From: Apus apus
Taxonomy: Eukaryota > Chordata > Aves > Apodiformes > Apodidae
Reading direction: 5' to 3'
Assembly: GCF_020740795.1 (NCBI RefSeq)
Contig: NC_067312.1
Location: 64,438,905-64,502,904, forward strand
DNA length: 64,000 bases
Shown here piece after piece: positions 1,013 through 56,590 of this stretch; within the stretch, counting starts at the first letter, position 1, and every line of letters begins with the position of its first letter. The translations under genes and the position numbers were made by a program. The notes beneath the pieces were generated by a model, which was given only the letters and a program-made list of their open reading frames with translations, was not told the origin of the DNA and made no database searches.

Positions 1013-4488
<3,476 letters not shown>

Positions 4489-5869: not shown

Positions 5870-6896
5870 TTTGAGAGTTGAACTTTCTGACAGAACTATG
5901 AGGGTTGTGATTAGCAGAGCAGAGTTGAGTTGGAGGCCTGTAAGCAGTGGTGTCCCCCAGGGATCAATACTCGGTCTGGTCGTGTTCAACATATTCACCA
6001 ATGACCTGGGTGAGGGGACAGTGTGTCCTCAGCAAGTTTGCTGATGAACTAAACTGGGAGTTGGTGACACTCACAGGTGCTGTGCTGCCATCCAGTGTAA
6101 CCTGGATAGGCTGGAGAATTGGGCAGAGAAGAACTTAATGAGGTTCAACAAGGGCAAGTGTAGGGTCCTGCACCTGGGGAGGGAGAACCCTGTGCACAAA
6201 TACAGGTTAGGGGTGGACCTTCTGAGGAGAAGGATCTGGGAGTCCTGGTAGATGGTAAATTATCCATGAGCCTGCAATGTTCCCTTGTGGCCATCAAGGC
6301 CAGTGGAATCCTGGGTTGCATAAGGAAGAGTGTGGCCAGTAGGTCAAGGAAGTCATTCTCCCCCTCTACTCTGCCCTGGTGAGGCCACATGTGGAATGCT
6401 GTGTCCAGGTCTGGGCTCCCCAGTTCAAGAGAGACAGGGAACTACTCGAGAGAGTCCAGTGGAGAGCAACAAAGATTATTGGGGGATTGGAGAATCTCCT
6501 TTATGAGGAAAGGCTGAGAGAGCTGGGAGTCCTTTGCCTGGAGAAGGCCAAGAAAAGACCTTATTAAAGCCTGTAAGTATCTAAAGGGTGGGTGTAAGGA
6601 GGATGGAGCCAGACTCTTCAGTAGTTCCCAGTGACAGGACAAGGGGCAACAGGCACAAGCTGGAACATGGAAAGTTCCATTTAAATATGAGGAAAAACTT
6701 CTTTATGGTGAGGGTGACAGAGCCTTGGGACAGGCTACCCAGGGAGGTTGTGGAGTCTCCTTTTCTGGAGATATTCAAGACCTGCCTGGATGCAGTCCTG
6801 AGTAATGTGCTCTAGGGGATCCTGCTTTAGCAGGGGAGTTGGGCTGGATGATCTCTAGTGGTCCCTTCCAACTCTGTCAATTCCGTGATTCCGTGA
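5870..6896 (+). mobile_element. CR1 LINE, 3' part, decayed
   Basis: The stretch encodes the C-terminal half of a CR1 reverse transcriptase in several broken frames. Visible pieces are [21 protein letters not shown] (the region just before the YADD-type motif) and [18 protein letters not shown]. It ends in the usual CR1 3' sequence and two copies of a short tail repeat (ATTCCGTG). Stops and frameshifts show that it is old. The 5' truncation is typical of CR1. Confidence 0.88.
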
Positions 6897-21800: not shown

Positions 21801-23653
21801 TGGCATGAGATTCAATAAGGCCAAATGTTGGGTCCTGCACTTTGGCCACAACAACCCCTGGCAGCACTACAGGCTTGGGGAGCAGTGGCTGGAGAGAGGG
21901 ACCTGGGGGTGTCAATTGACAGCTGGCTGAACATGAGCCAGCAGTGTGCCCAGGTGGCCAAGAAGGCCAAAACCATCCTGGCCTGCATCAGGAATAGTGT
22001 GACCAGCAGGACCAGGGAGGTGATCCTGCCTTGGTGAGGCTGCAGCTTGAGCACTGTGTGCAGTTTTGGACACCACAGTATAGGAAGAACATCAAGGTGC
22101 TGGAGAGAGTGCAGAGAAGGGCAACAAGGCTGATTAGGGGTCTGGAGAACAGGTCTTAGGAGTAGAGGCTGAGAGAGCTGGGGCTGTTCAGCCTGGAGAA
22201 GAGGAGGCTGAGGGGAGACCTCATTGCTCTCTACAGCTACCTTAGAGGACATTGTAGTGAGGTGGGTGTTGGCCTCTTCTCCCTAGTGACCAGCGATACG
22301 ACAAGAGGAAATGGGGTCAAGTTGTGCCAGGGGAAGTTCAGATTGGATATGAGGAAGAATTTATTCACAGAAAGAGTGGTGAGGCATTGGAACAGGCTGC
22401 CCGGGGAGCAGGCAAACCGTCCCCTGGAGGCATTCAAGAAATGGGTAGACATAGTGTTTCAGGAGATGTTTTGGTGGTTAGGGATTGTAGGGTTGGACTT
22501 TATGATCTTGGAGGTCTTTTCCAACTGTGATGATTCTATGATTCTATGAAGCAAAACCCACATATGTATCTGAGTTGGTGGATGCTCAGTTTAATTGCCA
22601 CATTCCTTTAAAGTTTTCATGTTTGTGTACCAAGAATCAGTAGCCATCTTTCAAATGCTCCATGAGCTTAGTTATCAGCATGAATCAAAAACCCCTTTTT
22701 GTGCCCAGTAATGAAACTCTCCAGTGTCTCTAGTATCCTACACCTGTCCTGTATCCATTAGGCCATATATAGTTCACAGTCTGAGCAGTATCAATGTCAT
22801 CAGCCAGTAGAAGGGAAAAGAAGAAAGCATTTTGTTACTAAGGTCAGCTGAAGTGATGGAGGGTGCAAATAGGTAAGTATTACATTTAATCAGGCTTTTC
22901 TGTTTTTAATCTGGTGCAAATCTGGACAGAAGTCCTCTCTAAGTTAGGAATACAACCATGGAAGGGAGTAGAATATGTTAGATACAGATATTCCTTCCTC
23001 ATGCTTTTCTGGCATTCTAGTCAAGAAGACTATGAAGATCGGTTTGCTCTCCTGGTCAGATTAATGGATTGTCTTTTTTTTCTCCTTATAAAGGATCTCA
23101 TTAAATGTGTACATATTTAAGATTAAACCAGAATATAATTATGAAAACAGGTCTCCTTACTTTACAATTTCAGTGTGGGTGGGCTGGTGCTGCTCATTTT
23201 CAGCCAGACCTGATATGAGACTCTGGCTCTTGTCAGCTCTCGTCCATGCCTTGTCCTGGACGCTTTGGGGAAAGCATCCCCTTTAACATCTGCAGGGACA
23301 TGGCTAGAGCCTGTAGTGGGAAGGAAAATGTCACTGACATGCTTTGATAGTTTACAAATGGAATAGCACCTTTCTTTGCTGTCTGCCAGGGTCCCTGAAT
23401 AACCTACTTTATTTCTCTCCATTGCCAGGGACGGCCGCCCCAGAGGTGGAAAGCTCAGGTTAACCATCTGAGCTGCCCCAAACCGGAGGCGTTCTGGTTC
23501 TCGTCTTCAAACCCTGGTTGGACGTCTCTCCAAGAGATGTGGAAAGCAAGCTTTGAGCAATCCAAGAAAGAAGCCTTGGCCCTGAGGCACCTGGTGGAAA
23601 GGAACAGGAATTTTACAGCTCAGGAATTTTGGATGCTTGTATTCAAAGAATAA
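12798..23653 (+). CDS. FUT10: Alpha-1,3-fucosyltransferase 10 / protein O-fucosyltransferase (spliced, complete)
   Basis: The coding exons are 12798-12875, 15333-15615, 19775-20610 and 23429-23653. All introns are GT-AG, the phases agree and the gene ends in TAA. The product is 473 residues, against about 479 in mammals. It is a GDP-fucose-dependent glycosyltransferase of family GT10, a type II membrane protein of the ER/Golgi. Residues about 8-25 form the membrane anchor, after a short basic cytoplasmic tail. The catalytic half carries the family signature [19 protein letters not shown] followed by [15 protein letters not shown], where the glutamate and lysine bind the nucleotide sugar. Classical work calls FUT10 an alpha-1,3-fucosyltransferase. 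More recent work, as I recall it, describes FUT10/FUT11 as protein O-fucosyltransferases acting on EMI domains. Nothing in the sequence looks broken, so the gene is probably functional. Confidence 0.94.
12876..15332 (+). other. FUT10: FUT10 intron after coding exon 1
   Basis: This intron is non-coding. I recognised no mobile element or RNA gene in it. Confidence 0.75.
15333..15615 (+). CDS. FUT10: FUT10 coding exon 2 (stem and start of catalytic domain)
   Basis: The acceptor is CCTGAAG and the donor GTAAGA. The exon encodes the variable stem and then the conserved [20 protein letters not shown] block. The first glycine codon of the next block is split across the intron. Confidence 0.93.
15616..19774 (+). 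other. FUT10: FUT10 intron after coding exon 2
   Basis: This intron of 4.2 kb contains the (CA)n/poly-C run listed separately and scattered T-rich stretches. I see no gene on either strand. Confidence 0.75.
16279..16314. repeat. (CA)n followed by 26 consecutive C
   Basis: Five CA units run straight into an uninterrupted tract of 26 cytosines inside a FUT10 intron. Such runs are prone to slippage and are difficult to sequence, so the exact length is unreliable. Confidence 0.95.
19775..20610 (+). CDS. FUT10: FUT10 coding exon 3 (main catalytic exon)
   Basis: This 836-bp exon has a TTGACTAG acceptor and a GTACTT donor. It encodes most of the GT10 catalytic domain: [36 protein letters not shown], and the fucosyltransferase signature [15 protein letters not shown]. 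Two short cysteine motifs (ECMVC) near the end are typical of FUT10/11. If the donor were skipped, translation would continue 20 codons to a stop at 20673. I consider that a shadow, because the last exon is clearly conserved. Confidence 0.95.
21002..21373 (-). pseudogene. ERVL-type pol fragment (RNase H/integrase junction)
   Basis: The minus strand reads as the end of an RNase H domain and the start of integrase of an avian ERVL-like element. Visible pieces are [35 protein letters not shown] and GELFLA, then HDTSGHQG after a disrupted codon. There is at least one stop, so it is not functional. The fragment ends exactly where the CR1 on the plus strand begins. It lies in the last FUT10 intron, antisense to FUT10. 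Confidence 0.8.
21374..22549 (+). mobile_element. CR1 LINE, 3' part
   Basis: The reverse-transcriptase C-terminal half is visible: [20 protein letters not shown] (motif A), [18 protein letters not shown], and a decayed FADG at the place of the catalytic FADD. It ends in the CR1 3' tail with repeated ATTCTATG. It has several frameshifts and stops. It lies in the last FUT10 intron in the sense orientation. Confidence 0.92.
23429..23653 (+). CDS. FUT10: FUT10 last coding exon
   Basis: The acceptor is ATTGCCAG. The exon encodes 74 codons and a TAA stop. The text matches the C-terminus of vertebrate FUT10, including [20 protein letters not shown] and [11 protein letters not shown] at the very end. 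Confidence 0.93.
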   Translation, partial: GRPPQRWKAQVNHLSCPKPEAFWFSSSNPGWTSLQEMWKASFEQSKKEALALRHLVERNRNFTAQEFWMLVFKE

Positions 23654-36645: not shown

Positions 36646-37281
36646 TGCAAGATGGTGGTAGTGGCCGGTGCCTGCACCCAGGAGACACCCAGTAGGCAGA
36701 TGGCAGGCTCAGGAGGCAGTCCTTCCCAGCCTCTTGGTGCAAGCAGCATCCCTGTGTGTGGCACACAGTGAGGAAAGGGCAGGAGCTTGCTGTGAAAACA
36801 CACCCCCAAGTCGCGTTTTGGGGAGCCAGGCAGGAATGTGGCCACCACCTCTTCCCTCCCTGCCACGGGCGGCAAGTTCTGAACTCGGCCGGAGCAACAG
36901 GCAGGGGAGGCGAGGGTGGGTGAGGTGACCCCACTGGGCCAATCCCAGCGCTCTGGCCCGTGGTGCTGGCTGGAAAACGGCTCCTCAGAGCGTCCTGCTC
37001 CGCCTGGGGCACTGGCCCAGCTGTGTCCCTGCTGGAGTTGCAGCAAAACCAGCTTCCCCTCCTGCCCGCTCTGTCCTCGGCATCTCCCGCTCCGAGGGTG
37101 TGCGGCTGCCGCAGGATTCCCTGCGGGAGGAGTTGCTGTTGCCACGGCCCTGAGGCTCTGGGAGCTCATGGCAGGGCCCCAGCAGGCGGGTGGCTGCCAC
37201 GCTGTGGGGCGGAGGACAAGCAAAGGCACCAGGGGAAGGGGCAGAAAGCAGCATCCAGAGACTGTGTCAGGGGAAGACAAA

Positions 37282-37287
37282 TTTATT
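37282..37287 (-). terminator. Poly(A) signal of the left RING gene
   Basis: AATAAA on the minus strand, about 970 bases after the stop codon. It is the mirror of the right signal. Confidence 0.6.
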
Positions 37288-37458
37288 TCCCTTGCCTTGA
37301 AGAAGGTGTTGCTGCACCCTCCTTGAAGGGGAGGCCAGGTGGGCAGCAGCAGTTACCCCCAGGGAGGTGCCGGAGCTCGGGCTGCCTGTAAGGTGCGGCT
37401 TCTTGCAGGGCTGGGGACTGTCTAGGGGGCTGTCAGCCCTGCTTTTTGGGGGGCAGCG

Positions 37459-38258
37459 GGGTTCCCTGGGCAAGTAGTCCCTGCTGTGGCTGGGTGTGCC
37501 AGCACCTTCCCTGGCAGCACCTTCCCTGGCTTCTCCTGGGGCTGCTTCTGCTCTGCTGTGAGAGGCACAGATGGAAGATAGCTGGGATCGCCACGCAAGG
37601 TGGCGTCCAACGTGCCTGGTTCCTCCTCAACATCAAAGCTTGCACGGCTGGTGGAGGAGGCCAGGCTGGACTTGGGTGTTTCCCAGCCTGGGATGCTGGG
37701 GTTGGTGCTGGCTGCAGGGCCGTCGTCCTCTTCCCAGGGCTGCTCCTGCTCTTCTGTGAGGGGGCGAGATGGGGGACAGCCAGGATCCTTCTGGAGGGCA
37801 GCCTCCAATGTGCTGGGTTCCTCCTCCACATCGAAGCCTACAGTGCTGCTGAGAGTGGCCAGCATGGAGCAGAGCCTTACCCACCACAGGGGGGTGGGGC
37901 TGGCTGCAGGGCCCTCATCCTCCTCCCAGGGCTGCTCCTGCTCTGCAGTGACAGACACAGATGGGGGACTGTTGGGACCCCCGTGGAGGGTGGCCTCCGG
38001 TGTGCCAGGTTCCTCCTCCACGTCAAGGCTTGAATGGCTGCTTGAAGAAGGTGCTGCTGCAGCTCCGCCAGTGCTAAAGGCAGCATGGCCTCCTCTGGGG
38101 TGGGGAAGAATGAGGTCACCTGGAGACCCTCTTCCTTTTCGGGTGGCATTGGAGTCACCCAGGCGAGCACTCCCTGCCCTGGGCAGAGGAGGCACCTGTG
38201 GCCGCTGCCACCTGGGATCCTGCAGAGCTCCTGGGCAAGGACCGGTGGGCAGCAGGAG
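37459..38258 (-). pseudogene. Decayed second set of C-terminal modules after the left RING gene
   Basis: This is the counterpart of 48116-48915, with the same frameshifted fourth repeat and an acidic array of three units. The basic PCKKPHL module continues to about 37267. Because both copies share the same stop and frameshifts, the decay came before the inverted duplication, or was spread by gene conversion. Confidence 0.55.
37520..38030 (-). repeat. Tandem array of 192-bp units downstream of the left RING gene (three units)
   Basis: Translated on the minus strand, three units of about 64 codons each begin with a DVEEEP motif and contain a (E/A)Q(E/K)QPWE-like segment. They are in the same reading frame as the RING gene but beyond its stop codon. 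They resemble the acidic FDVKEEAGRLDAAL segment inside the RING protein. Confidence 0.8.
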
Positions 38259-39875
38259 TTACCGCCAGGGAGCTGCTGGGGTGCTTTCACGACGCAGCCT
38301 CTTGCAGGGCACAGGACAGTCTGGGCGGCTGGGGGCTCTTCTCTTTAGGGGCCACTGGGCCTTCCCAGGCAACCACTCCATGCTCTGGGCAGAGGAGGCA
38401 CCTGTGGCCGCTGCCACCTGGGATCCTGCAGAGCTGCTGGGGGAGGCTGAGTGGGCAGCAGCAGTTACCCCCAGGGCGGTGCTGCGGCTGGTTCCGTGGC
38501 GCAGCCTCTTGCAGGGCACAGGACAGTCTGGGCGGCTGGGGGCTCTTCTCTTTAGGGGCCACTGGGCCTTCCCAGGCAACCACTCCATGTTCTGGGGAGA
38601 GGAGGCACCTGTGGCCGCTGCCACCTGGGATCCTGCAGAGCTGCTGGGGGAGGCCAGGTGGGCAGCAGCAGTTACCCCCAGGGAGGTGCTGGGGATGGAG
38701 CTCAGGCTGGTTTGAAGGCGCATGCGCTTGCATGGCACGGGACAGTCTGGGAAGCTGGGAGCTCTTCTCTTTGGCAGGCGCCAGGCCTTCCCAGGTGAGC
38801 ACTCCATGCTCCGGGCAGAGGAGGCACCTGTGGCCGCTGCCACCTGGGAGACTGCAGAGCTGCTGGGGGAGGCGGGATGGGCAGCAGCAGTTACCCCCAG
38901 GGAGGTGCCAGAGCTAGGGCTGGCTTCAAGGCACGGCCTCTTGCAAGGCAGGGTGCGGTCTGGGGGGCTGGTAGCCAACCTCTCCGGGGGATGCTGGAGC
39001 CCTCCTTCCAGGTAGTCCCTGCCGTGGATGGGTGTGCAAGGACCTGCTGCCACTGCCTTCCCTGGATCCTCCCAGGGACCCCTGTGGAGGGCAGCATCCA
39101 ACCTGCCAGCTTCCTCCTTGACATCAAACCTTGCAGGGCTGCTGCAGGAGGCCAGGCTGGAGTTGGGCTTCACCTGCCGTGTGGTGCCTGGGCTGGTGGT
39201 GCCTGCTGCAGGGCTGTCAACCTCCTCCCTGGCCTCACAGGTGTCCTGCGTGTCCAGGTGCCGGCGGATGGCTGTGCCGCACAGGCACTCGGCAGCTGTG
39301 CTGAGCTGCAGAAGGAATGGCTGCGTGTGTTCTTGCAGCCCAGTCTGCAGCTTCTCTGCCAACACTGCCACGTCCAGTCCACGGAGGCACAGGAGGCCCA
39401 CAATGATACCCTCCCACGCAGTCACTTTCCAGCACTGGCCCTCAAAGAGCCTCTCGAGCTGCTGCCTCAGCCACAGCTGCAAGGGCCTGATGTTATCTGG
39501 GTGGCTCTGGAAGAAGTCTGCCCACACCTCAGGGGGGAAGCCACCTGCCTGAGCCCTGGGCCCCTGCTCTGCATCCTCCTCCTTCTCACCCTGCTGTTCT
39601 TCACCTGAGGGCTCTGCAAGGCCTGGGATTCCAAGCACAGTTAAATCGTTGTCCAACCGGTTGGAGAACAAGACGAACGTTGTCTCCAACATGCACAGGG
39701 GGCAGTTGCGCTTCTGCTGTACAGAGCGCATGGCACAGCTGAAGCAAAACTGGTGGAGGCACGGGATCAAGTAGGCAGTGTCATTCTGAGGCTTGCAGCA
39801 GATGGGGCAGCTCCATTTGCTCTCTGCGCCCTGCAGGGACCTTGGGAACACGGAGGAAGAGAAGCCGCTCCCCAT
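38259..39875 (-). CDS. RING-finger protein, TOPORS-like (left palindrome copy)
   Basis: The product has 538 residues. Near the N-terminus is a canonical C3HC4 RING: C23-x2-C26-x12-C39-x-H41-x2-C44-x2-C47-x10-C58-x2-C61, with CLHQFCFSC at its centre. This predicts an E3 ubiquitin or SUMO ligase that binds an E2 enzyme. Residues about 115-210 form a helical region (PEVWADFFQSHPDNIRPLQL). After a polar linker come three repeats of about 70 residues (326-398, 399-467, 468-538), each with LGVTAAAH, VAAATGASS and a basic KRRAP...PCKRLR motif that could act in nuclear import. The RING resembles TOPORS most, but I could not search. The ATG at 39875 is the first after a probable acceptor (TTTGCAG). 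The frame is open further upstream only through a TTG codon. The gene is intact and is divergent from its twin. Confidence 0.75.
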   Translation of the reverse strand: MGSGFSSSVFPRSLQGAESKWSCPICCKPQNDTAYLIPCLHQFCFSCAMRSVQQKRNCPLCMLETTFVLFSNRLDNDLTVLGIPGLAEPSGEEQQGEKEEDAEQGPRAQAGGFPPEVWADFFQSHPDNIRPLQLWLRQQLERLFEGQCWKVTAWEGIIVGLLCLRGLDVAVLAEKLQTGLQEHTQPFLLQLSTAAECLCGTAIRRHLDTQDTCEAREEVDSPAAGTTSPGTTRQVKPNSSLASCSSPARFDVKEEAGRLDAALHRGPWEDPGKAVAAGPCTPIHGRDYLEGGLQHPPERLATSPPDRTLPCKRPCLEASPSSGTSLGVTAAAHPASPSSSAVSQVAAATGASSARSMECSPGKAWRLPKRRAPSFPDCPVPCKRMRLQTSLSSIPSTSLGVTAAAHLASPSSSAGSQVAAATGASSPQNMEWLPGKAQWPLKRRAPSRPDCPVPCKRLRHGTSRSTALGVTAAAHSASPSSSAGSQVAAATGASSAQSMEWLPGKAQWPLKRRAPSRPDCPVPCKRLRRESTPAAPWR

Positions 39876-40273
39876 CACTGGCACGGCAGTGGCAGGTTTT
39901 GTGCCCTGCAAACGGGAAAGGCCTCAGCCCCTCGCTCTGCCAGGGGAGGGAGAGCAGGAAGGAAAGGCCAGGCCCCTCGGGAAGGACACTCTCCCAGCTC
40001 TCCGGGCCCCACGGCCGCTCCAGGGGAGATGTTTGCCTCTCGCCTCACTTCTGCTGCTGCAAGGGAGTCCTTGCAGCGCCCGGCTTCCTGAACCAGGCAG
40101 GGTCGGGGAAACACAGGGTTTGGCTCCGGGATGGGCACCCAGAGCTGCCGACGCCGGCAGCTCCCAAAGCACCGCCCAGCACCAGGTGAAGCCTCGCACG
40201 AGCTTCCAGACCTCGCAGGCACGCTCGGTCGGAGTCCAGGCACGAGGCAGACTGAGCCAGGCTGTGCTGGCAC

Positions 40274-40354
40274 CCAAATATAAGCAGTGAGGGCCGTGAG
40301 GTCACAGTCTGTGACACGCTGACGTCACAATCACCCCTTTGTGACGTCAGCTGC
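40274..40354 (-). promoter_or_regulatory. TATA/CRE promoter of the left RING gene
   Basis: This is the mirror image of the right promoter. On the minus strand two perfect CRE palindromes (TGACGTCA, 40342-40349 and 40320-40327) and a CRE-like TGACCTCA stand upstream of a TATA-like TTATATT (40277-40283). The spacing from TATA to the probable noncoding first exon is normal. Confidence 0.65.
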
Positions 40355-40695
40355 CACCTCTCCTGCAGCCGCCCCTGCAGGCGCACAGGCATCAGGAGAG
40401 AGAAGAAAATACTGTTTCATGTTTTCAGCTTCTGCATTTCCCTGCTGCACTAGCTTGGTCCCCCGCACGCATGTCCGTGACCCTGTGTATGAAGTCCCCA
40501 CTCCCAGTGCCTTGCAGAGTTCTCCTGCGAGGGCGAGTGTGGTGGGAGCAGACAGCGGGGAGTGGCAGTGGCTGGATGGTGCCTCCCCCAGCTGGCTGCC
40601 TTGCCCTGTGCAAGGCCAGGATTTGCAGGGAGGACCTGGGTGCTCAGTTGCCAGCCCTGGGAGAGAGACTGCCAACCCTGCGGGCCGTGCCCCCC

Positions 40696-40869
40696 TGTGC
40701 TGGTTTGGTTTGGCGGGATTTTTGGTAGTGGGGGAAGGACCCTGGGGTGGCTCCTGTAAGAAGCTGAGAAGCTCCACCTGCTCCAAAACCAGCCAAGGAG
40801 CCATTTCAGAGGCAAGAGATGCGCCTCTGTGATTGACATAGGAAAGAACTGAGATAAGACCTGAGCCAA
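40696..40869 (+). mobile_element. Truncated LTR end at the inner edge of the left arm
   Basis: The block starts TGTGCTGGTTTGG, the typical start of an avian ERVK-like LTR, and is colinear with the inverted LTR beside the right arm for 174 bases. It stops abruptly at the palindrome boundary, and the following bases are unrelated. Confidence 0.75.
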
Positions 40870-43800
40870 ACTTTTGTGTGTGTAAATGGTGCACCATGTG
40901 GCTAGCTATCTCCTCTTGGATTAGTTGGGCTTTAAACTGTTTCCTGCTCCTATTTTGCAGCTCACTGAGCTGTGTCATCAGTAAGCAATTGGTCCTACTA
41001 CTACACAGGGAAAGAAGGCATGAAGTATCTCAGCCTCCCCCTCTTTGATCACTATGGTTGGCTCTGGATCCAGTAAGAACAGAGATTCTCCTTAGTCCTC
41101 TTTTTGTTGCTAACATATTTGTAAAAACTTTCCTGTTATTGTTGACCACTGCAGCTAGGATAATTTTAGGTTGGGCTTTGGCCTTCTGATTTTTTCCCTG
41201 GTCCAACAAAGACCTGGGTGTGCAAAGCAGGGGTGACACCAGTTTAGAAGCAGCTGTCCTTTTCTGCCACACCAGGGGCTCGCTAGGTAACACTGGGAGG
41301 AAGAAGGCTGCAGGGAGAACCTTCTGCCAGAAGTCTCATGATTGGCTTGGGGAGGTATATGAAGTTTATTTTGGTTTGAGCACCACAAAACAGCAAGCAG
41401 AAAAGCAAGGCTGAGTGGGAGGGAGTCTTCACATGAACACCTGGGCAAAGTATGTTCTTCATCTATGTTTTCTTAATATGCATCTTTACCATATGCTCCA
41501 GGCAATCTCTCTTCTGCTTACTGTGATTTTAACTGCAGGTGACACATTTCTTATGACAAAGAATTTGGTATCTGTGATAAAAACAGAATCAATAGAAGAA
41601 AATTGAATTAAATTAAAAAAAAGAAGCATGTGGAAGTAGGGTTAAACATTTTTTTCCCCTTCAGGATACCAATGTTGACTAATAGCTCAGCCCTTCTGAG
41701 TGATAATTTAGATGTCTCAATTTCAGGAGAGTCTTGATAAGAGGGGAAATTAGTTTATCATGATGATTTAAAGTGCCATGTTTAATTATGATTTAAAACA
41801 AAACACAGCTTCAATTTAAATTATTGCTTACATTTTGCTGTGCGTGGTCTTTCAGGTTTTTTTTTTCTCGTCAAAGAAAGTTTTATTCTCATTTGCTGAT
41901 AAAATTCAGGATATCTTTTGGCTGAAGGTAAGGATACATTCAAGACCCACAGCTATTCTTCACAAAGTTTGACATGTTTATTCAGATTAATAATGTTTAC
42001 TTTCTTTAGGATGCTGGAGGCTGATGAAGACCCATTTACTTTTCCTAATTAATGGTTCTTGTGATCTCAGATAAACAGCTTCTGGAAAATAACAGAGATT
42101 CAGTTAGCCCCCACGCTACGGTTTTGTATGTGTGGAGAGAGTTGTATCTCACTTCTTTTTTCCTGTGTAATTACATAGAAGTACTATATGCATACTGCAA
42201 AAGAGAAGGTTTATTAAAACATGTCCAACTTTTAAAATTAAGTGATTTATTAAATAAGAGGAATACAATCCTTAGCCAATGATTGAGTTTAGCTCCTGGT
42301 TATAATGACCCTCAAATAAATCCCATTTTACTTCTTGTTTATATTCACAGATTAAAAGATAAAAATTAAACTTTTCTGCCCTTCCATCTTACCTCCCAGT
42401 TCTCAGCTTTGAACAACCAAATAAATGCTCCAGAATGAGAAAAATGTTCTCTCTGTACCTTGGGAAGTGACTGCTTTCCCAGGCTGATTTTGCCTTTTCT
42501 ACACACCTTGTTCCCCAGGGCTCAGGTAAGGATTTCTGATGGTTCAGAGTTTCCTTTTTTTCCTTTTTTTTTTTTTAGCTAGACTCACCTGATTTAATTT
42601 TAAACAGTTTTGAATACATGTGGCTTTACAATGAATAATTACTGATGTTTTCTTGTACATAAAAGAAAAAGTGGAAAAAAAAATAAAATGGAAAAACTGG
42701 TGTTCCCTCTTACTGAGCTCTGCCAGAGACACAGATATATTTTTCCTTTGAGCTATTGAAGGACCTGAGCAATAAATGCAGCTGGTGCCCACAGGCAGCC
42801 TTGGTGTTCTTGTGGCAGCAAGTGGAGCAGCCTGAGACAGTGAAATTGAGCCAGCCCAGCCAGGATGAACTTCCCATACCATTGCCCCGATGGCTCTGTA
42901 CACGCTTTGGGTGAAGCAACCCTAACAAATGGCAAAGCTAAAATATGCTCCAAGACACCAAAATCCTCTGGCTATGTATGCTGTGTTTGTGAGAAACGGG
43001 GCAGGGAGGGTGATCCTCAGGGAAGGTGTAGCAGTAGTGTGGTAAAGACAGCAGTGATACTTCTGTAAAGCCTGGGCATTTGATGTGCTGGCCACAATTA
43101 ATATGCCTTCCTATGCTTTTCTGATGGAGATCACACTTTCCTGCCCCAAACCTTACTGAAATGTGAAGTGATAATCAGTGTCTACCATGGCCTATTTCTG
43201 GGCTGATTGGTGGGGAGTTCATAGTCTAGCTCAGCACTGCCACAGGATGCGAGCTGGTGTTCCAGCTTATGGAATCACAGGATGATGGGAGAACACCAGA
43301 TTTTCATTTGGTTTCTTTTTGGTTTTTTTTTCAGTGCAATTTTCAAGGACATCAAGTTGGAGAGAAAACCTGACTTCCCCTGTGGTATGGTCTTTCCTGT
43401 CCCAGGCAGAAGGAGAGCACATGCACTGCATATTGAAAAATGTAATGAGTGTTTTTTCTGCAGCTGAGGATGAGAAAAGTAATGTTTCCACTTCCTTTAG
43501 CAGAAACACATAGGTTTACTTCAGCTGAGGGTCTTGCATAAAGCATATGGGAGCTTTTCACCAGGACTTCACTATAGCAGCAAGGATTGGCTTTAAATTT
43601 TAGTGGTGATAATAAGACTGTGAGACTGAACCACAAAAACGGTTGAACTATCTGGTGCTCAATGACGTAATTTTTCCCCTTTAAAAGCATGTATTAACAA
43701 ACATGAATTTATCAAAAAGACAAAAGACAAACATAGCACAGAGAAAACCAGGTACCGTAGAGACCAATCATTCCTTTTCCAGCATGTATGGATATATATT

Positions 43801-44507
43801 TTTAGCACAGCAAACAAACAACCAGATTGCTTTTTTCTCATCAGTAACACCTTAGGACTTGCTTACTGTCTTCTTGGGCAAGTAAATGCTGCTGCTTGCA
43901 CTATCTGATTTGCACTTGTCTACCTGTTTCTGCTAGGTGCTTCAGCTCTTGTTTTCCTCTTTGATGACTTCTAGCTTTTTACTCTGTAGCTGCGTAGCCA
44001 GTGTTGTGTCAGCTTGTACCTCTGCAAGATCATGTAGAACCACAGGCAGCCCTCCTGCATGCAAGGGACTCCGCAGCTGCTTAGCTAAAAAACCTGGTTT
44101 CAGTTTAGCATTTATTTTCTGTCCTTCTTTCTTCCTTCTGACTCAGAAGTACGTACAGGGCAACAAGGGTGACATCTGATAGTAATTTACAGTATGTTTC
44201 CTCTGGATGAGATTGCATTGCTATAGGCCAGTAGGAAGATATTTATTCTATTTGATATTAAGTCAATTAATGCTGAACAGAATTACTTCAGCAGGAAGAG
44301 GCCTTTCACACACAGCTTCCCTTCAGAGCTAGTATGTACTGAAATTCACAATCACTGATTTCCAGGACAGGGTAAAATAGGGAACATAAGCCTATAGCAC
44401 CAACATCAGTAAAGTGCACAGGTGATGCAATAAGGCTCAATATGGCACCTGCAGAAGCTATTGGGAGAAAAACCTGTTGCCTATGCTGTGTTTTGGGGTT
44501 GAAACTC
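40870..44507. other. Palindrome spacer, mostly unrecognised
   Basis: This is AT-rich single-copy-looking DNA between the arms. Apart from the CR1 piece at 41010-41212 I found no recognisable gene or element. It has poly-T/A-rich stretches at 41855, 42550 and 42665. Confidence 0.5.
41010..41212 (-). mobile_element. CR1 internal fragment
   Basis: The text matches the upstream part of a CR1 on the minus strand (around AGATTCTCCTTAGTCCTCTT and the following GTTGGGCTTTGGCC). It is short, with no intact frame. Confidence 0.65.
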
Positions 44508-44651
44508 TGAAAGAAGGCTGCCCAGAGAAGTTGTGGATGCTCTATCCCTGAAATGTTCAAGGTCAGGTTGAACAGGGCTTTGAGCACTCTAGTCTAGTGG
44601 GAGGACTCCCTGCTCATGCAGGGGGATTAGAACTAGATGATCTTTAAGGTC
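44508..44651 (+). mobile_element. CR1 3' end fragment, cut by an LTR
   Basis: This is CR1 3' untranslated text, ending GATGATCTTTAAGGTC exactly where the LTR begins. The remaining CR1 tail does not reappear on the other side of the LTR. Confidence 0.7.
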
Positions 44652-45678
44652 TGTCATGGTTTGGGCCTGGCACGACAACAAAGAACCCGCCGCGTGGCTG
44701 CTCACTCAGCTCCCCCCATCACACACACACTCTGGCATGAGGAGGACAAAGGCCGACTAGAAAAGCTCATGGGTCGAGACAAAGGACAAGGAGGGTTCTT
44801 CACCGATTAAGGTCATGGGCAAAGCAAACTAAACTTGGGGAAAGTAGTAATTTAATTTCACACTAATCCAATGCCCACAGGACAGAGACAACACCAAGAG
44901 CAGGGCTTACACACCTTATCCCCACCCCTCCCTTCTTCCCAGGCACAAGTCACTTGGTTGCCCATTTCTCTCCCTCGTTCCCCACAGCAGCTCAGAGGGA
45001 CAGGGGATGGGGACTAGAGTCAGTTCACAGGCTGGTGGTTCTTGCTGCTCCTTCCTCCTCAGGAAGAAGGGATTCCTTACAGTCTTCCCCTGCTTCCCCA
45101 CGGGGTCCCTCCCACGGGAGAGAGGCCTCCACAAACCTCTGCTTCGTGAGTCCTTCCCACCAGGTCTGGAGCTGCTCCAGCCTGGGCTTCCTACAGAGTC
45201 ATGGGCTGCTTAGGGGACAGTCACCTCCCCTGGCACCAGGGTTTTCCACAGCTGCATAATCCAAGTCCACTGGTAGCAAATCCGAGTCCACAGGCAAAGT
45301 TCACCCCTCCTGGCGCCTTCAGGGAACATTCCACCACGTTCCTCTAGGATTGCAGGGGGACAGCTGCCATCTCGCCATGGGTTGCAGGGAAAACTTCTGC
45401 TTGGGCACCTTCTTCCCCGTCTTCCTCTGCAACCAGCCGGGATCTTCACCCCAGCGCTGCCATTCACATCTCCAGCACAGCTCTTCTTTTTCCTAACTGC
45501 TCGCTTGGCTCAGGTCTTATCTCAGTTCTTTCCTGTGTCAATCACAGAGGCGCATCTCTTGCCTCTAAAACGGCTCCTTGGCTGGTTTTGGAGCAGGTGG
45601 AACTTCTCAGCTTCTTACAGGAGCCACCCCAGGGTCCTTCCCCCACTACCAAAAATCCCGCCAAACCAAACCAGCACA
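44652..45678 (-). mobile_element. Full-length LTR (ERVK-like) overlapping the right palindrome arm
   Basis: About 1.03 kb, with inverted termini TGTCATGGTTTGG and CCAAACCAGCACA. On the minus strand it starts TGTGCTGGTTTGG, a typical avian LTR start. No internal retroviral sequence adjoins it, and no target-site duplication is visible. The left flank is a CR1 tail and the right flank is RING-gene upstream DNA. Only its last 174 bases (45505-45678) are inside the palindrome. Confidence 0.75.
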
Positions 45679-46019
45679 GGGGGGCACGGCCCGCAGGGTT
45701 GGCAGTCTCTCTCCCAGGGCTGGCAACTGAGCACCCAGGTCCTCCCTGCAAATCCTGGCCTTGCACAGGGCAAGGCAGCCAGCTGGGGGAGGCACCATCC
45801 AGCCACTGCCACTCCCCGCTGTCTGCTCCCACCACACTCGCCCTCGCAGGAGAACTCTGCAAGGCACTGGGAGTGGGGACTTCATACACAGGGTCACGGA
45901 CATGCGTGCGGGGGACCAAGCTAGAGCAGCAGGGAAATGCAGAAGCTGAAAACATGAAACAGTATTTTCTTCTCTCTCCTGATGCCTGTGCGCCTGCAGG
46001 GGCGGCTGCAGGAGAGGTG

Positions 46020-46100
46020 GCAGCTGACGTCACAAAGGGGTGATTGTGACGTCAGCGTGTCACAGACTGTGACCTCACGGCCCTCACTGCTTATATTTGG
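46020..46100 (+). promoter_or_regulatory. TATA/CRE promoter of the right RING gene
   Basis: Two perfect TGACGTCA sites (46025-46032 and 46047-46054), a variant TGACCTCA (46070-46077) and a TATA-like TTATATT (46091-46097) are packed in 80 bases. Transcription should start at about 46120. CRE sites close to a TATA box are characteristic of promoters driven by CREB/CREM, including many active in male germ cells. The link to testis is inference. Confidence 0.65.
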
Positions 46101-46325
46101 GTGCCAGCACAGCCTGGCTCAGTCTGCCTCGTGCCTGGACTCCGACCGAGCGTGCCTGCGAGGTCTGGAAGCTCGTGCGAGGCTTCACCTGGTGCTGGGC
46201 GGTGCTTTGGGAGCTGCCGGCGTCGGCAGCTCTGGGTGCCCATCCCGGAGCCAAACCCTGTGTTTCCCCGACCCTGCCTGGTTCAGGAAGCCGGGCGCTG
46301 CAAGGACTCCCTTGCAGCAGCAGAA

Positions 46326-46468
46326 GTGAGGCGAGAGGCAAACATCTCCCCTGGAGCGGCCGTGGGGCCCGGAGAGCTGGGAGAGTGTCCTTCCCGAGGG
46401 GCCTGGCCTTTCCTTCCTGCTCTCCCTCCCCTGGCAGAGCGAGGGGCTGAGGCCTTTCCCGTTTGCAG
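46326..46468 (+). other. Probable 5' UTR intron of the right RING gene
   Basis: A GAA|GTGAGG donor and a pyrimidine-rich TTTCCCGTTTGCAG|GG acceptor enclose 143 bp directly before the coding start. The upstream exon has no ATG, so ATG 46499 would be the first in the mRNA. The left copy has the same at 40048-39906. This is a sequence prediction only. Confidence 0.45.
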
Positions 46469-46498
46469 GGCACAAAACCTGCCACTGCCGTGCCAGTG

Positions 46499-48115
46499 AT
46501 GGGGAGCGGCTTCTCTTCCTCCGTGTTCCCAAGGTCCCTGCAGGGCGCAGAGAGCAAATGGAGCTGCCCCATCTGCTGCAAGCCTCAGAATGACACTGCC
46601 TACTTGATCCCGTGCCTCCACCAGTTTTGCTTCAGCTGTGCCATGCGCTCTGTACAGCAGAAGCGCAACTGCCCCCTGTGCATGTTGGAGACAACGTTCG
46701 TCTTGTTCTCCAACCGGTTGGACAACGATTTAACTGTGCTTGGAATCCCAGGCCTTGCAGAGCCCTCAGGTGAAGAACAGCAGGGTGAGAAGGAGGAGGA
46801 TGCAGAGCAGGGGCCCAGGGCTCAGGCAGGTGGCTTCCCCCCTGAGGTGTGGGCAGACTTCTTCCAGAGCCACCCAGATAACATCAGGCCCTTGCAGCTG
46901 TGGCTGAGGCAGCAGCTCGAGAGGCTCTTTGAGGGCCAGTGCTGGAAAGTGACTGCGTGGGAGGGTATCATTGTGGGCCTCCTGTGCCTCCGTGGACTGG
47001 ACGTGGCAGTGTTGGCAGAGAAGCTGCAGACTGGGCTGCAAGAACACACGCAGCCATTCCTTCTGCAGCTCAGCACAGCTGCCGAGTGCCTGTGCGGCAC
47101 AGCCATCCGCCGGCACCTGGACACGCAGGACACCTGTGAGGCCAGGGAGGAGGTTGACAGCCCTGCAGCAGGCACCACCAGCCCAGGCACCACACGGCAG
47201 GTGAAGCCCAACTCCAGCCTGGCCTCCTGCAGCAGCCCTGCAAGGTTTGATGTCAAGGAGGAAGCTGGCAGGTTGGATGCTGCCCTCCACAGGGGTCCCT
47301 GGGAGGATCCAGGGAAGGCAGTGGCAGCAGGTCCTTGCACACCCATCCACGGCAGGGACTACCTGGAAGGAGGGCTCCAGCATCCCCCGGAGAGGTTGGC
47401 TACCAGCCCCCCAGACCGCACCCTGCCTTGCAAGAGGCCGTGCCTTGAAGCCAGCCCTAGCTCTGGCACCTCCCTGGGGGTAACTGCTGCTGCCCATCCC
47501 GCCTCCCCCAGCAGCTCTGCAGTCTCCCAGGTGGCAGCGGCCACAGGTGCCTCCTCTGCCCGGAACATGGAGTGCTCACCTGGGAAGGCCTGGCGCCTGC
47601 CAAAGAGAAGAGCTCCCAGCTTCCCAGACTGTCCCGTGCCATGCAAGCGCATGCGCCTTCAAACCAGCCTGAGCTCCATCCCCAGCACCTCCCTGGGGGT
47701 AACTGCTGCTGCCCACCTGGCCTCCCCCAGCAGCTCTGCAGGATCCCAGGTGGCAGCGGCCACAGGTGCCTCCTCTCCCCAGAACATGGAGTGGTTGCCT
47801 GGGAAGGCCCAGTGGCCCCCAAAGAGAAGAGCCCCCAACCTCCCAGACTGTCCTGTGCCCTGCAAGAGGCTGCGCCACGAAACCAGCCGCAGCACCGCCC
47901 TGGGGGTAACTGCTGCTGCCCACTCAGCCTCCCCCAGCAGCTCTGCAGGATCCCAGGTGGCAGCAGCCACAGGTGCCTCCTCTGCCCAGAGCATGGAGTG
48001 GTTGCCTGGGAAGGCCCAGTGGCCCCCAAAGAGAAGAGCCCCCAGCCGCCCAGACTGTCCTGTGCCCTGCAAGAGGCTGCGTCGTAAAAGCACCCCAGCA
48101 GCTCCCTGGTGGTAA
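46499..48115 (+). CDS. RING-finger protein, TOPORS-like (right palindrome copy)
   Basis: This is the inverted twin of the gene at 38259-39875, also 538 residues with all eight zinc-binding positions intact. I count eight amino-acid differences from the left copy, all in residues after about 340. Examples are S/N before MECSPG, L/P in AQWPPKRR twice, and the last residue W instead of R. The first 340 or so residues are identical. A probable first exon without ATG (about 46120-46325) and a 143-bp intron (46326-46468, GTGAGG...TTTGCAG) precede the start. A poly(A) signal follows at 48895. It is likely to be a nuclear E3 ligase. The TOPORS-like assignment rests on the RING and general layout only. 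Confidence 0.75.
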   Translation: MGSGFSSSVFPRSLQGAESKWSCPICCKPQNDTAYLIPCLHQFCFSCAMRSVQQKRNCPLCMLETTFVLFSNRLDNDLTVLGIPGLAEPSGEEQQGEKEEDAEQGPRAQAGGFPPEVWADFFQSHPDNIRPLQLWLRQQLERLFEGQCWKVTAWEGIIVGLLCLRGLDVAVLAEKLQTGLQEHTQPFLLQLSTAAECLCGTAIRRHLDTQDTCEAREEVDSPAAGTTSPGTTRQVKPNSSLASCSSPARFDVKEEAGRLDAALHRGPWEDPGKAVAAGPCTPIHGRDYLEGGLQHPPERLATSPPDRTLPCKRPCLEASPSSGTSLGVTAAAHPASPSSSAVSQVAAATGASSARNMECSPGKAWRLPKRRAPSFPDCPVPCKRMRLQTSLSSIPSTSLGVTAAAHLASPSSSAGSQVAAATGASSPQNMEWLPGKAQWPPKRRAPNLPDCPVPCKRLRHETSRSTALGVTAAAHSASPSSSAGSQVAAATGASSAQSMEWLPGKAQWPPKRRAPSRPDCPVPCKRLRRKSTPAAPWW

Positions 48116-48343
48116 CTCCTGCTGCCCACCGGTCCTTGCCCAGGAGCTCTGCAGGATCCCAGGTGGCAGCGGCCACAGGTGCCTCCTCTGCCCAGGGCAG
48201 GGAGTGCTCGCCTGGGTGACTCCAATGCCACCCGAAAAGGAAGAGGGTCTCCAGGTGACCTCATTCTTCCCCACCCCAGAGGAGGCCATGCTGCCTTTAG
48301 CACTGGCGGAGCTGCAGCAGCACCTTCTTCAAGCAGCCATTCA

Positions 48344-48662
48344 AGCCTTGACGTGGAGGAGGAACCTGGCACACCGGAGGCCACCCTCCACGGGGGTCCC
48401 AACAGTCTCCCATCTGTGCCTCTCACAACAGCGCAGGAGCAGCCCTGGGAGGTGGATGAGGGCCCTGCAGCCAGCACCAACCCCAGCATCCCAGGCTGGG
48501 AAACACCCAAGTCCAGCCTGGCCTCCTCCACCAGCCGTGCAAGCCTTGATGTTGAGGAGGAACCAGGCACGTTGGACGCCACCTTGCGTGGGGATCCCAG
48601 CTGTCTTCTGTCTCTGCCTCTCACAGCAGAGCAGAAGCAGCCCCAGGAGAAGCCAGGGAAGG
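48344..48662 (+). repeat. Tandem array of 192-bp units downstream of the right RING gene (two units)
   Basis: This is the same array as in the left arm but with two units instead of three. The difference accounts exactly for the difference in arm length (192 bp). Confidence 0.8.
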
Positions 48663-48894
48663 TGCTGCCAGGGAAGGTGCTGGCACACCCAGCCACAGCA
48701 GGGACTACTTGCCCAGGGAACCCCGCTGCCCCCCAAAAAGCAGGGCTGACAGCCCCCTAGACAGTCCCCAGCCCTGCAAGAAGCCGCACCTTACAGGCAG
48801 CCCGAGCTCCGGCACCTCCCTGGGGGTAACTGCTGCTGCCCACCTGGCCTCCCCTTCAAGGAGGGTGCAGCAACACCTTCTTCAAGGCAAGGGA

Positions 48895-48900
48895 AATAAA
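48895..48900 (+). terminator. Poly(A) signal of the right RING gene
   Basis: AATAAA about 780 bases after the stop codon, followed by a TTTGTCTT-type U/GU-rich stretch. Confidence 0.6.
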
Positions 48901-49536
48901 TTTGTCTTCCCCTGACACAGTCTCTGGATGCTGCTTTCTGCCCCTTCCCCTGGTGCCTTTGCTTGTCCTCCGCCCCACAGCGTGGCAGCCACCCGCCTGC
49001 TGGGGCCCTGCCATGAGCTCCCAGAGCCTCAGGGCCGTGGCAACAGCAACTCCTCCCGCAGGGAATCCTGCGGCAGCCGCACACCCTCGGAGCGGGAGAT
49101 GCCGAGGACAGAGCGAGCAGGAGGGGAAGCTGGTTCTGCTGTAGCTCCGACGGGGACACAGCTGGGCCAGTGCCCCAGGCGGAGCAGGACGCTCTGAGGA
49201 GCCGTTTTCCAGCCAGCACCACGGGCCAGAGCGCTGGGATTGGCCCAGTGGGGTCACCTCACCCACCCTCGCCTCCCCTGCCTGTTGCTCCGGCCGAGTT
49301 CAGAACTTGCCGCCCGTGGCAGGGAGGGAAGAGGTGGTGGCCACATTCCTGCCTGGCTCCCCAAAACGTGACTTGGGGGTGTGTTTTCACAGCAAGCTCC
49401 TGCCCTTTCCTCACTGTGTGCCACACACAGGGATGCTGCTTGCACCAAGAGGCTGGGAAGGACTGCCTCCTGAGCCTGCCATCTGCCTACTGGGTGTCTC
49501 CTGGGTGCAGGCACCGGCCACCACCACCATCTTGCA

Positions 49537-49880
49537 GCTGAACTTTACTTGGCTGGACGCCGATTCCTAGGACAGGGCTTTGTCCTGGCCGTGCTGAGTG
49601 CAAGCAATGGCCATCGGCTCTGGGAACGAGCGCTAATTGTCCTCATGCGTGGTGGCTCTTGCTGAGTCAGAGGCCGTCCTTCCCTGCAGGTGGGACACAC
49701 GGGTAGGTAGGTTGCACTCGAGTAGCCCGAGAAAGGTCATCTGCAGAGATCAGACAGCCCCTCCTCTCTGCAGGGGCACGGAGCAGCAGCAGGGAGCGGT
49801 AGGGCTCCCTGCTCTGGCAAGGCAGAAGGCGGATCTTTAGCAGGAGATCAGCCGTTAAGCAGTTAACGGCAGATCTGGGA
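49537..49880. other. GC-rich flank outside the right arm
   Basis: The sequence remains GC-rich past the end of homology and returns to AT-rich after about 49880. The corresponding flank of the left arm is ordinary AT-rich DNA. No gene was seen. Confidence 0.5.
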
Positions 49881-52800
49881 GGCCTGAGAAGTCACCTAAA
49901 ACTGAAACCTCTTAATGATGCTCGCATTAAAGAGACTACAATTCCAACTACGATGAGACAAGCCTGCTGCTCTGTAGCTACCCAAATCATTCACGCATCC
50001 TCTCATTCTATGAAAAGGGTTGAGTAAGCTTTCCATAATTTTACCATTAAATACAAACCAGACCAGAAATAAAAACTCAAACCACTCTGGATTATATTAA
50101 ACATGAAAGTCTGTCCTCCTTCCTTGTGCCAGTATCTTAGCAAGGTGTGAGTGTAAGGCTGATCAGTTAAGTCTTCTGCCACACCGTCCTTGCTGTCCTG
50201 TGAGAATTTTTTTTCCCTGTTTCTCCAGGATCACCCCTTCTTCTCTCCCTGCTAGCTCTCCTGTGTCTCTATGTCATTATCCTGCTGAAGGAGCTTGTTC
50301 TCTCCAACTCCAGGGTTTCTTCAGTTGCACTGTGCATAGTTTGACAAAGTTCCCAGTGATTAAATTTCCTCCTGTAGCTTATTGTGAGAGTGTGAGGAAG
50401 AACTCAAAGAAATAAATGCAAGTTGCAGGCTTTGCATTTAGGTGTGGTTTTTAAAAAACTGCCTCCACCCAAGCCCCATACTTTTCAAGAGCTATGAGGG
50501 TCCTCCCAGCACCCTCTCTTCTTTAAAAGGGAGAGATTGAGCTAAGCCAGCCTCCAGTGTCTGAGCCCATTCATATCATAGCTCTTCTAAAGTTTGCTAG
50601 CAATCCTGTTAAAGTGACCCATTCTGTTAAGAGCTATGGAACTGAAGAGGTCAGAACCTGTTCTTCTGGGAGCCTTCATGCAGTGAAAAAAGAGCTTAAG
50701 CTGCTGTCACAACATCTCAGAAAGCATAGCTCAGAGACGTGCTTGAAGAAATCAAGGACATCTGCAAGGAGTTGCAAAGCACTGAATGGAGAGAGTATCT
50801 GTGATGCTAGATCTCCACTGGCAGGGTCAGACCAAAAATTATCAGGAGGTCCTTAGTATCTGGGCCATCACGAATAGCTATTCATCATGAGGCAGACCCC
50901 TATGCAGCACTGCAAGGGTCCTTGCCTGTGACCTATTATTTCTCTAATTTACAAATGCGTGTATTCCAGGAGCCTGAAAGCCCAAGAATTGTCTGGTTCT
51001 GTGGTTAATAAGATGTTATCAGGTTCCTATGACCAGATGGCATTTACCAGAGGGCTGAGTGGGAGGGAACTCAGGTGTGAACATGCAGATCTGCTGCCCA
51101 AGGTGTATAACTAGTCATTGCAAACAGCAAAGGTGCCAGATGGCTGTTGGAACTATCAAGCTATGGATGACTTACTCTCCTGAGAAGGTGATAGAAATAT
51201 ACACTCAAGACTAAATTCACTGAGTACACAATACATTGAGAAATAACCACTATGGTTTTGTAAAGCTGCATATGCCCCACTTGTCTGATAGGGCTTAATG
51301 GGAGATCCTCCAGAGATTACTGATGGTAATCCATCAAAGAGCTGGAAAAGGACATGAATGGAAAAATATTGATGCACCTGTATTTTGAGCAGAGTGCAGG
51401 TCTTGTCCCTCTTGTCTCCAAGTAAGACATGCTGGATGCAGAGAATGGAAAGAAAAAAGTGATTGAAATGACCACAGAGATGGAGGAGCTACTTTCAAGG
51501 ACATTTAAAAACTTGAGAGTTTTTGGTCTGGGACTGAGCTGAAGGGTATGAAACAGGCATGTGCAAAATCAGTAAAATGGAGGACAAGCTTAAGGTGGAA
51601 CTGTAGAACATCAAATCCTACAACACTGGAGCCAAGGTGACTGGTTTAAAACAGAAAAGAAAGAAACTGCTTCTATACAGAGGGGAAGGGAAATTTTGGA
51701 ACTTGCTGGCATAGGAGATTGTGACAGCAGACTGTCTCACAAGTAGAAGGGCTTGTGTCTTCTCCCTAAGTATTTCCTACTACCACAGCTGTGCACAGGA
51801 TATGTGCCAAGAGGACTGCTGTGCATCAGTAGTGCAGCATTTCCTACACTCTCTAATCAATGTCCTTTCCCTCCAGATCCCATGTATTACGTCCAATATG
51901 CTCCTCCTTTAGGAGACTCCTTTTAGGAGCCATTTGATGGACAGTGTGAGGTGGGATGGAGAAAGATTACCCAGCACATCTCTGTTGGAGAGCATCCTGT
52001 CTGGTGCTCAGCTAGATGGAGTCTCTCCCATAGCTCTTCCAGCTCCAGCTCAATGTCAGACACTCCAGGCAGGAATCCATGTAGTGTGGGCATCTCAGAG
52101 CATGTGCACTATGGAGAATCTTCCAACCCCTAAGATTCTGTGATTCTGTGAAATGCAGCGATGGAGCAAGGCCTGCAGGGCAGAGTAGATGAGATGAGCA
52201 GGAGCTGGCTGATCCCTCTCAGCCCATGAGACAAGGCAGGCCCACTTCACTCTTAGATTTTTCCTAACTACATTGTTTTGATTATAGGGCTAAAAGCTGA
52301 CCCAAACAGAGGGTCAAGTTATTGAAAAAGAAAAAATAAGGGTGAATTAAAAAATACAGACTAGGAGAAAAAGCACTGGTCACAAATGCCTCATAAATTC
52401 AGCATCAGCTTCCTTTGGTCCTCAAGCCAAGTCTGCTCTAATGCTATTTGCAGATATAGATTGCTGTCTTTTTCATTACGGTTATCAAATGATGCATTTG
52501 TGGCGCAGTTTCAGATCTCTCTCTGCCCTGGTAAGTGGATTATGCATCCTGGTGCCAGCACTACTTGAGATATAATACCAAGAATAAAAAAGAAATAATA
52601 AAATATCTCTCAGGCTTCTAGATTTTTCTCTCTCACTCTTTTTCAAAGATCTAATTAAGATATTTATATATCAACAGACAGAAGGGACCTGACTTCTGGT
52701 TTGATAGCAAAATGTGACAAAAGGCACTTTGCTAAGCATTTGCAATCACTGCTATTCCCAGCTAAAGTTCTGGGAAATTGTGTCAGTGTTTCTTCCTGCT

Positions 52801-54335: not shown

Positions 54336-56590
54336 AATAGAATCATGGAGTGGTTTGGGTTGGAAAGGACCTTAAAGATTATCTAGTTCTAACCCCGCTA
54401 CATGGGCAGGGACACTTCCCATTAGATCACATTGCTCAGAGCCCCATCCAACCTGTCCTTGAACACTCCCAGGGATGGGGCACACACAGCTTCCCTGGGC
54501 AATGTGTGTTCCACCACTCTCCCAGGAAATAATTTCTTCATAATGTCTAACCCAAATCTCCCCTCTTCCAGTTTAAAGACATTACCCCTTGTCCCATCAC
54601 TACATGCCCTTAGAAAAAGTCCCTTCCCAGTTTTCCTTTAGCCCCTCTAGGTACTAGAAGGCTGCTGTAAGGTCACCCTGGAGCCTTCTCTTTGCCAGGC
54701 TGAACAACTCTTTCAGCCTGTCTTCATATGAGTGGTGCTCCAGCCCTCTGATTATCTTTATGGTCCTCATCTGGACTTGCTCCAACAGCTCCATGTCCTT
54801 CTTGTGTTGGGGACACCACAGCTGAACACACTACTCCAGGTTTACTCTTAGGAGAGCAGAGTAGAAGGGGAGAATCACCTCCCTTGACCTGCTGCCCACA
54901 TTTCTTGTGATGCAGCTCAGGATATTGTTGGCTTTCTGGGCTGGAAAGCTCACCAGCTCATATTAAGCTTTTCATCAGCCAACACCCCCAAGTCCCCTTC
55001 CTTAGAGCTACTCTCAATCCATTCGTCCACCCTGTGCTTGGGATTGCCTCGACCCATGTGAAGGACCTTGCACTTGACCTTATTGAACTTCATGAGGTTG
55101 GAATGGGCCCACCATTCAAGCCTGTCAAGGTCCCTCTGGATGGCATCCCTCCCCTCGAGTATTTTGACCACACCAAATAGCTTGGTGTCATCAGCAAACT
55201 TGCTGAGGATGCACTGTCCATGTCACTGACAAATACGTTAATCAGCACCAGTAGTGGTCCCCATACTGACCCTGGAGTAATACCACTCGTCACTGATCTC
55301 CACTTGGACATAATTGATCACAACTCTTTGAATGTGATCATCCAGCCAATTCCTTACCCACTGAGTGTTCCATCTGTCAAGTCTATGTCTCCCCAGTTTA
55401 GAGACCAGGATGTTGTGCAGGACAGTCTCACATTATGTGCAAGTCCATGTAGATGATGTCTGTTGCTCTCTGCTTGTGCAATGATGCTGTGACCCCACGG
55501 TAGAAAGCCAACAAACTTGTCAGGCACAATTTGCCCTTGGTGAAACCATGTTGGTTTCTACATTTACTATGTGCCTTAGCAGAACCTTCAGGAGGATCTG
55601 CTCCATGATCTTTCCAGGCACAGAGGTGAGACTGACTGGTCTGTAGTTCTCTGGGTCTTCATTTTTTCCCTTTTTGAAAATAGGGATTATATTTCCCCTT
55701 TTACAGTTAGTGGGAACTTGATTGCCACAGCTTCTCAAATATGATGGAAAGCAGCTTTGCAACTTCATTCACCAGTTGTTTCAGGAGTCATGGATGGACC
55801 TCATCAAGTTCCATGGACTTGTGCACTATCAGGTTCTTTAGATGGTCTTGAACCAGCTCTTCTCCTTCAGTGGGTGGATCTTCCTTCTCTCAGTACCTGC
55901 CTTTGCCTTCTGTAACTTGAGTGGTGTGGCTAGAGCCCCTGTCAGTGAAGACTGAGGCAAAAAAAAAATTAAGTGCCTCAGCCTTCTCCATATCCCTTGT
56001 GACCAGGTCTCCTGTATCCTTATGGAGAGGGCCTACATTTTCCCTAGTCATCATTTTATCACTGACATACCTGTAGAAGCTTTTCTAGTTACCCTTGTTG
56101 TCCCTGGCCAGATTTAATTCTATCTGGGCTTTAGTTTTCCTAACCTGATCCCTGGCTGCTTGGACAACTTCTTTGTACTCCTCCCAGGCTACCTATCCTT
56201 GTTTCCACCCTCTGTAGACTCTTTTTACATCTAAGTGTGTCCAGGAGCCCCTTGTTCATACATGCAGGTTTCCTGGCATTCTTGTCTGCCGTCCTCTTTG
56301 TTAGGATGCATTGTTCCTGCGCTTGGAGGTGATCCTTGAATATTCACAACCTTTTCTGGGCTCTTCTTGCCTCCAGGGCTTTATCCCATGGTACCCTACC
56401 AAGCAGATCCATGAAAGGTGAAGGTCTGCCCTGAGGATCCTGAATTCCACCATTTTGTGGTCACTGCAGCCAAGGCTGCCCTTCAGCTTCATGTTGTCCT
56501 CTAACTCATCCTTGTTGGTGAGAACAGTATAGCACCTTTTCTCACTGGTTCATCTACCTCATCACCCAATGCCCTTCAGCAGGCTTGGCC
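54336..56590 (-). mobile_element. CR1 LINE, about 2.25 kb, decayed
   Basis: The 3' end lies at 54336 (AGAATCATGGAGTGGTTTGGG on the plus strand). On the minus strand, pieces of reverse transcriptase are readable: [20 protein letters not shown] and [17 protein letters not shown] around 55600-55700, and [20 protein letters not shown] around 55090. Many stops and frameshifts show that it is inactive. The 5' limit is approximate. Confidence 0.88.

Follow-up and report, generated by a model that had tools for sequence, protein, structure and literature searches.

The best-known palindromes of sex chromosomes have arms of near-perfect identity, and to our knowledge, fewer multicopy gene families have been published for the Z chromosome than for X and Y. 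For the chicken Z, Bellott and colleagues reportedly described an amplicon in 2010. The Z recombines in males, which carry it for two thirds of the time. Canonical TOPORS is an E3 ubiquitin/SUMO ligase gene, and its product has a long C-terminal region that is RS-rich (arginine/serine-rich) and carries interaction motifs. A passage of PMC3167187 cites Backstrom et al. 2005 for HINTW as a multicopy gene on the avian W, and a passage of PMC7787181 cites a 2010 study of gene-bearing arms in inverse orientation that show signs of gene conversion. Here we describe an inverted pair of arms, each carrying a RING-finger gene that we class as TOPORS-derived, in 64,000 nucleotides of Apus apus (the window; NC_067312.1, positions 64,438,905 to 64,502,904). 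The pair is genuine, small and Z-linked as far as the assembly shows, and is best seen as a single local event inside a Z-biased TOPORS-derived family.

Self-BLASTN of the window pairs the two arms as inverted copies (Table 1) with the ends and the spacing of about 4.6 kb (4,635 bp) that the initial annotation had proposed. The end-to-end global alignment that it suggested, of the left arm against the reverse complement of the right, found 3,996 of 4,032 positions alike (99.11% identity), with 36 mismatches, 28 of them transitions, and a single gap of 192 bp, the extra sequence being confined to the repeat region of the left arm. BLAST identities of 95.9-97.5% were rejected as a measure of arm divergence, since they are lowered by register slips in internal tandem repeats. 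Each arm had been credited with a complete RING gene, a promoter and a poly(A) signal, and each indeed holds a 538-residue open frame, a promoter-like region with two TGACGTCA motifs and an AATAAA (at 48895 on the right and 37287 on the left). Because both start codons point toward the spacer, transcription would be divergent.

The suspicion that this is a Z-linked palindrome is supported as to the gene-bearing inverted pair and as to the chromosome, which we take to be the Z. The contig carrying the pair (77.8 Mb), here called C36, also holds DMRT1 and, at 55.27 Mb and thus at a separate locus, the parent gene, canonical TOPORS. A table in PMC1876622 places chicken TOPORS on Z. Furthermore, a HIT family search of the assembly gave two matches on C36, one on contig C10 and no others, and the HIT-domain gene on the pair's contig is taken for HINT1. 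Assignment of the contig to Z is supported by this evidence. The same matches were tried as a means of sexing the assembly by the W gene HINTW, and this use was set aside. The test is weak because HINTW is single-copy in duck, according to a passage of PMC7787181; it yields no sex for the bird, and so no argument from hemizygosity against merged haplotypes.

What did not hold was the picture of an isolated palindrome in ordinary single-copy surroundings: domains of the FNTA and FUT10 types are present as expected, but close copies of the repeated unit lie on the same contig: the left arm is preceded by such copy sequence at a distance of ~104 kb, and the right arm is followed by it at ~385 kb and ~1.04 Mb. 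Protein matches to the arm gene fall on the Z contig in 77 of 89 cases, in about 52 places that range over about 55 Mb as singles, pairs and small arrays. Many copies are concentrated on a sex chromosome, as in an ampliconic family. The right arm lies within a full family unit. The left arm is cut inside the unit at both ends, which gives it the look of a local inverted duplicate. A dispersed repeat resembling a long terminal repeat (LTR) lies upstream of the right promoter, and the left arm retains only the last 174 bp of this repeat, which begins with TG and ends with CA. Because the homology of distant family copies starts about where this repeat ends, it probably entered the ancestor of the close copies. 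Recurrence of the whole pair elsewhere was considered and rejected: among the 40 of 4334 candidates scored, spacer part 40870-44640 is present in full at one place in the assembly, and dispersed repeats match only its edges, ~331 bases at the start and ~532 at the end. The last part of the spacer, 44109-44640, has an 87% match at 11.02 Mb of contig C7, a dispersed or transposed repeat.

The two open reading frames (ORFs) differ at nine nucleotides, eight of them nonsynonymous, and the resulting differences in 8 of 538 residues all fall within 356-538, the repetitive C-terminal part. Pfam RING models score over the cut-off in the arm protein, and the eight zinc ligands of its C3HC4 RING are invariant in 11 proteins aligned. 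Database relatives are bird proteins, some called TOPRS ligase, together with snake TOPORS. When 11 bird proteins, the two arm proteins among them, were made into a profile and compared with snake TOPORS, residues 20-199 aligned with a probability of 99.5%. The second TOPORS domain after the RING is also present, both as a second segment (E value 3e-07) and in the profile alignment. Beyond it extends a family-specific tail of ~340 residues made of repeats; the profile alignment ends near residue 200, and the long TOPORS C-terminal region was not matched in the arm protein. Since only residues 20-199 align, the sequence places the arm gene as TOPORS-derived and not TOPORS itself. Two sister copies, at 64.37 and 64.87 Mb of C36, have 772-residue open frames, with a mid-protein repeat region that differs from that of the arms and is longer.

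The motif TGACGTCA, a cyclic AMP response element (CRE), occurs four times in the window, always within the arms, compared with 0.31 expected, and four were reached in none of 100 shuffles. The paired elements lie 66 and 44 bp upstream of the TATA-like TTATATTT; the ATG follows them at distances of 474 and 452 bp. Among 31 sequences searched, canonical TOPORS included, 27 matched the right-arm promoter and leader (the right arm itself counted), six of them over a short 35-70 bp, and four gave no match. A promoter common to the arm genes and canonical TOPORS was rejected, as the search gave no match. Once six near-identical copies from arrays and a further two weak ones were set aside, 19 sequences were aligned, in which the CRE at 46047 is perfect in eight and reads TGACATCA in three, the CRE at 46025 is perfect in six, and a GT resembling a splice donor is retained in 15.

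On balance, and with reasonable though far from full confidence, we favor a local inverted duplication within a Z-rich TOPORS-derived family, followed by conversion between the arms, which would carry ligase genes driven by CRE and TATA elements. A competing account, which we consider somewhat unlikely, is a young inverted duplication that never converted, in which the mismatches cluster owing to fast-changing tandem repeats and to a patch that the left arm took from another copy, and the clean tract reflects recency and luck. Its appeal lies in the placement of the 36 differences, 22 of which fall in tandem repeats at 47565-48861 and seven in the patch at 49116-49152, leaving seven elsewhere. 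A permutation test of the mismatch-free 1,639-bp tract nonetheless gives p 0.00095 with the patch excluded, and a simulation of 14 mismatches over the non-tandem parts produced such a run in 0 of 20,000 trials, a figure that overstates the case by counting the patch as separate mismatches. Nor is the tract a cold spot, because other family copies vary freely within it. Its lack of mismatches therefore suggests arm-to-arm gene conversion.

It is also unlikely that the arms are decaying family relics, copies recent enough to remain open yet serving no selected function. Frames of at least 345 residues are kept in 15 of 16 copies translated, and all eight zinc ligands are likewise present in 15 of the 16, the arms included; moreover, where distant copies were compared, the promoter and leader had diverged less than synonymous sites. 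Ratios of nonsynonymous to synonymous change (dN/dS), estimated over 183-184 codons in 14 pairs, were 0.57-0.83 in the eight most distant pairs; among five close pairs, each with few changes, they ranged over 0.29-1.22, and they were undefined between the arms, where no change was present across the codons compared. With dN/dS of about 0.6-0.7, coding constraint thus appears weak, or selection mixed. An assembly artefact or merged haplotype seems very improbable. The assembly does contain 499 N in the stretch around a sister locus, but the window has none, the breakpoints of the left arm are its own, as is a 192-bp stretch, and it stands inverted next to a unique spacer, and the two arms have common derived sites absent from other copies. 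Merged haplotypes are an unlikely source because an allele would not be inverted, shortened at both ends and set beside unique sequence.

Under the favored reading, one unit of a RING family multiplied mainly along the bird Z would have been duplicated locally in inverse orientation, and the arms would later have exchanged sequence, leaving the 1.6-kb clean tract, a step that the statistics above support. More tentatively, the left arm may have received the short patch from a sister copy ~394 kb away. Each gene would be transcribed away from the spacer from its CRE/TATA promoter, with a short intron in the 5' untranslated region (UTR), most likely in male germ cells under CREB/CREM-type control; a passage of PMC3091680 describes CREM as active in spermatids. 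The product would be a small nuclear E3 ligase with the TOPORS RING, the second conserved domain and a new repetitive tail. Two points limit the germ-cell part of this reading: each CRE is perfect in fewer than half of the 19 aligned family promoters, and presence of a CRE or TATA box is no predictor of regulation, according to a passage of PMC3091680. For both reasons, germ-cell expression of the arm genes is offered only as a hypothesis.

Table 1. Positions of features in the window.
Feature	Position	Strand	Basis
Left arm, a shortened family unit in inverse orientation	36646..40869	-	self-BLASTN, global alignment; both ends truncated relative to unit
Right arm	45505..49536	+	self-BLASTN, global alignment
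Spacer	40870..45504	.	genome search
Complete family unit holding right arm	44648..49981	+	extents common to other Z copies
LTR-like dispersed repeat	44652..45678	+	genome comparison
TOPORS-like RING ORF, left copy, 538 aa	38259..39875	-	ORF list, Pfam, translation of copies
TOPORS-like RING ORF, right copy, 538 aa	46499..48115	+	ORF list, Pfam, translation of copies
Tract of 1,639 bp identical between arms, over promoter, leader and RING half of ORF	45926..47564 (right-arm coordinates)	+	arm alignment
Patch with 7 arm differences	49116..49152	+	arm alignment, comparison with other copies
Two CRE motifs TGACGTCA, left gene	40342-40349 and 40320-40327	-	motif count in window
Two CRE motifs TGACGTCA, right gene	46025-46032 and 46047-46054	+	motif count, family promoter alignment
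TATA-like TTATATTT, left gene	40276..40283	-	mirror of right-arm position; family promoter alignment
TATA-like TTATATTT, right gene	46091..46098	+	family promoter alignment
Candidate 5' UTR intron, 143 bp (GT at 46326, AG end 46468)	46326..46468	+	predicted splicing
AATAAA poly(A) signal, left gene	37282..37287	-	motif search
AATAAA poly(A) signal, right gene	48895..48900	+	motif search
FUT10-type domain	20023-20598	+	domain search
Two FNTA-type repeats	1060-1149 and 1573-1659	-	domain search

Elsewhere in the window, repeats of ~0.5-1 kb that are 65-76% alike lie at 5919-6872, 21366-22408, 54670-55219 and 62792-63985. One frame in them resembles what we take to be a CR1 long interspersed element (LINE) reverse transcriptase, for which Pfam gave no match. 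A phage collection searched with the left arm gave no match, as expected for bird DNA.

If the family is under selection, its dosage or rapid sequence change would be the target, not this pair in particular. A bolder possibility, which we regard as improbable, is a runaway family of spermatid-expressed TOPORS-derived ligases on Z, driven by dosage conflict and with inverted pairs as the places where conversion homogenizes intact ligase genes. Such a conflict, if real, might concern Z transmission, or set the Z against the W or autosomal silencing, much like that of mouse X-linked multicopy genes. With about 52 Z places, intact frames in most translated copies, a common promoter region and signs of conversion, the family offers a concrete test case for two questions: does the Z accumulate ligases of the male germline, and do inverted pairs contribute to their preservation?

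Several known systems can be set beside this locus. With TOPORS the arm protein has in common the RING and the second conserved domain, aligned over residues 20-199; it differs in being encoded at a separate locus, in being much shorter, and in its own repetitive C-terminal tail. Avian TOPRS ligase or RING proteins (Pandion, Columbina, Alopecoenas, Columba, Grus and Opisthocomus) have the same domain order, with identities of 30-46% when the whole protein is searched and of 50-54% when the comparison covers residues 1-215, but are only 323-380 residues long and lack the ~70-residue tail repeats. No report of a Z-linked TOPORS-like expansion was found in the titles and abstract beginnings of open-licence papers, among the matches listed. 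The pair resembles the 2010 system as outlined in PMC7787181, and differs from that outline in its 4-kb arms, 99.1% identical, on Z and inside a dispersed family. Primate Y palindromes have large arms on a non-recombining chromosome, unlike this pair, and near-perfect arm identity through conversion. Here the arms contain one perfect 1,639-bp tract, and their overall 99.1% is below the identity of the best-known sex-chromosome palindromes. HINTW and the chicken Z amplicon likewise place multicopy genes on a sex chromosome of birds, but the gene here is different, and its family extends across about 55 Mb of Z and is not confined to one amplicon. The pair joins the known class of sex-chromosome multicopy genes and is modest by itself; the Z-biased expansion of TOPORS-like genes holds more interest.
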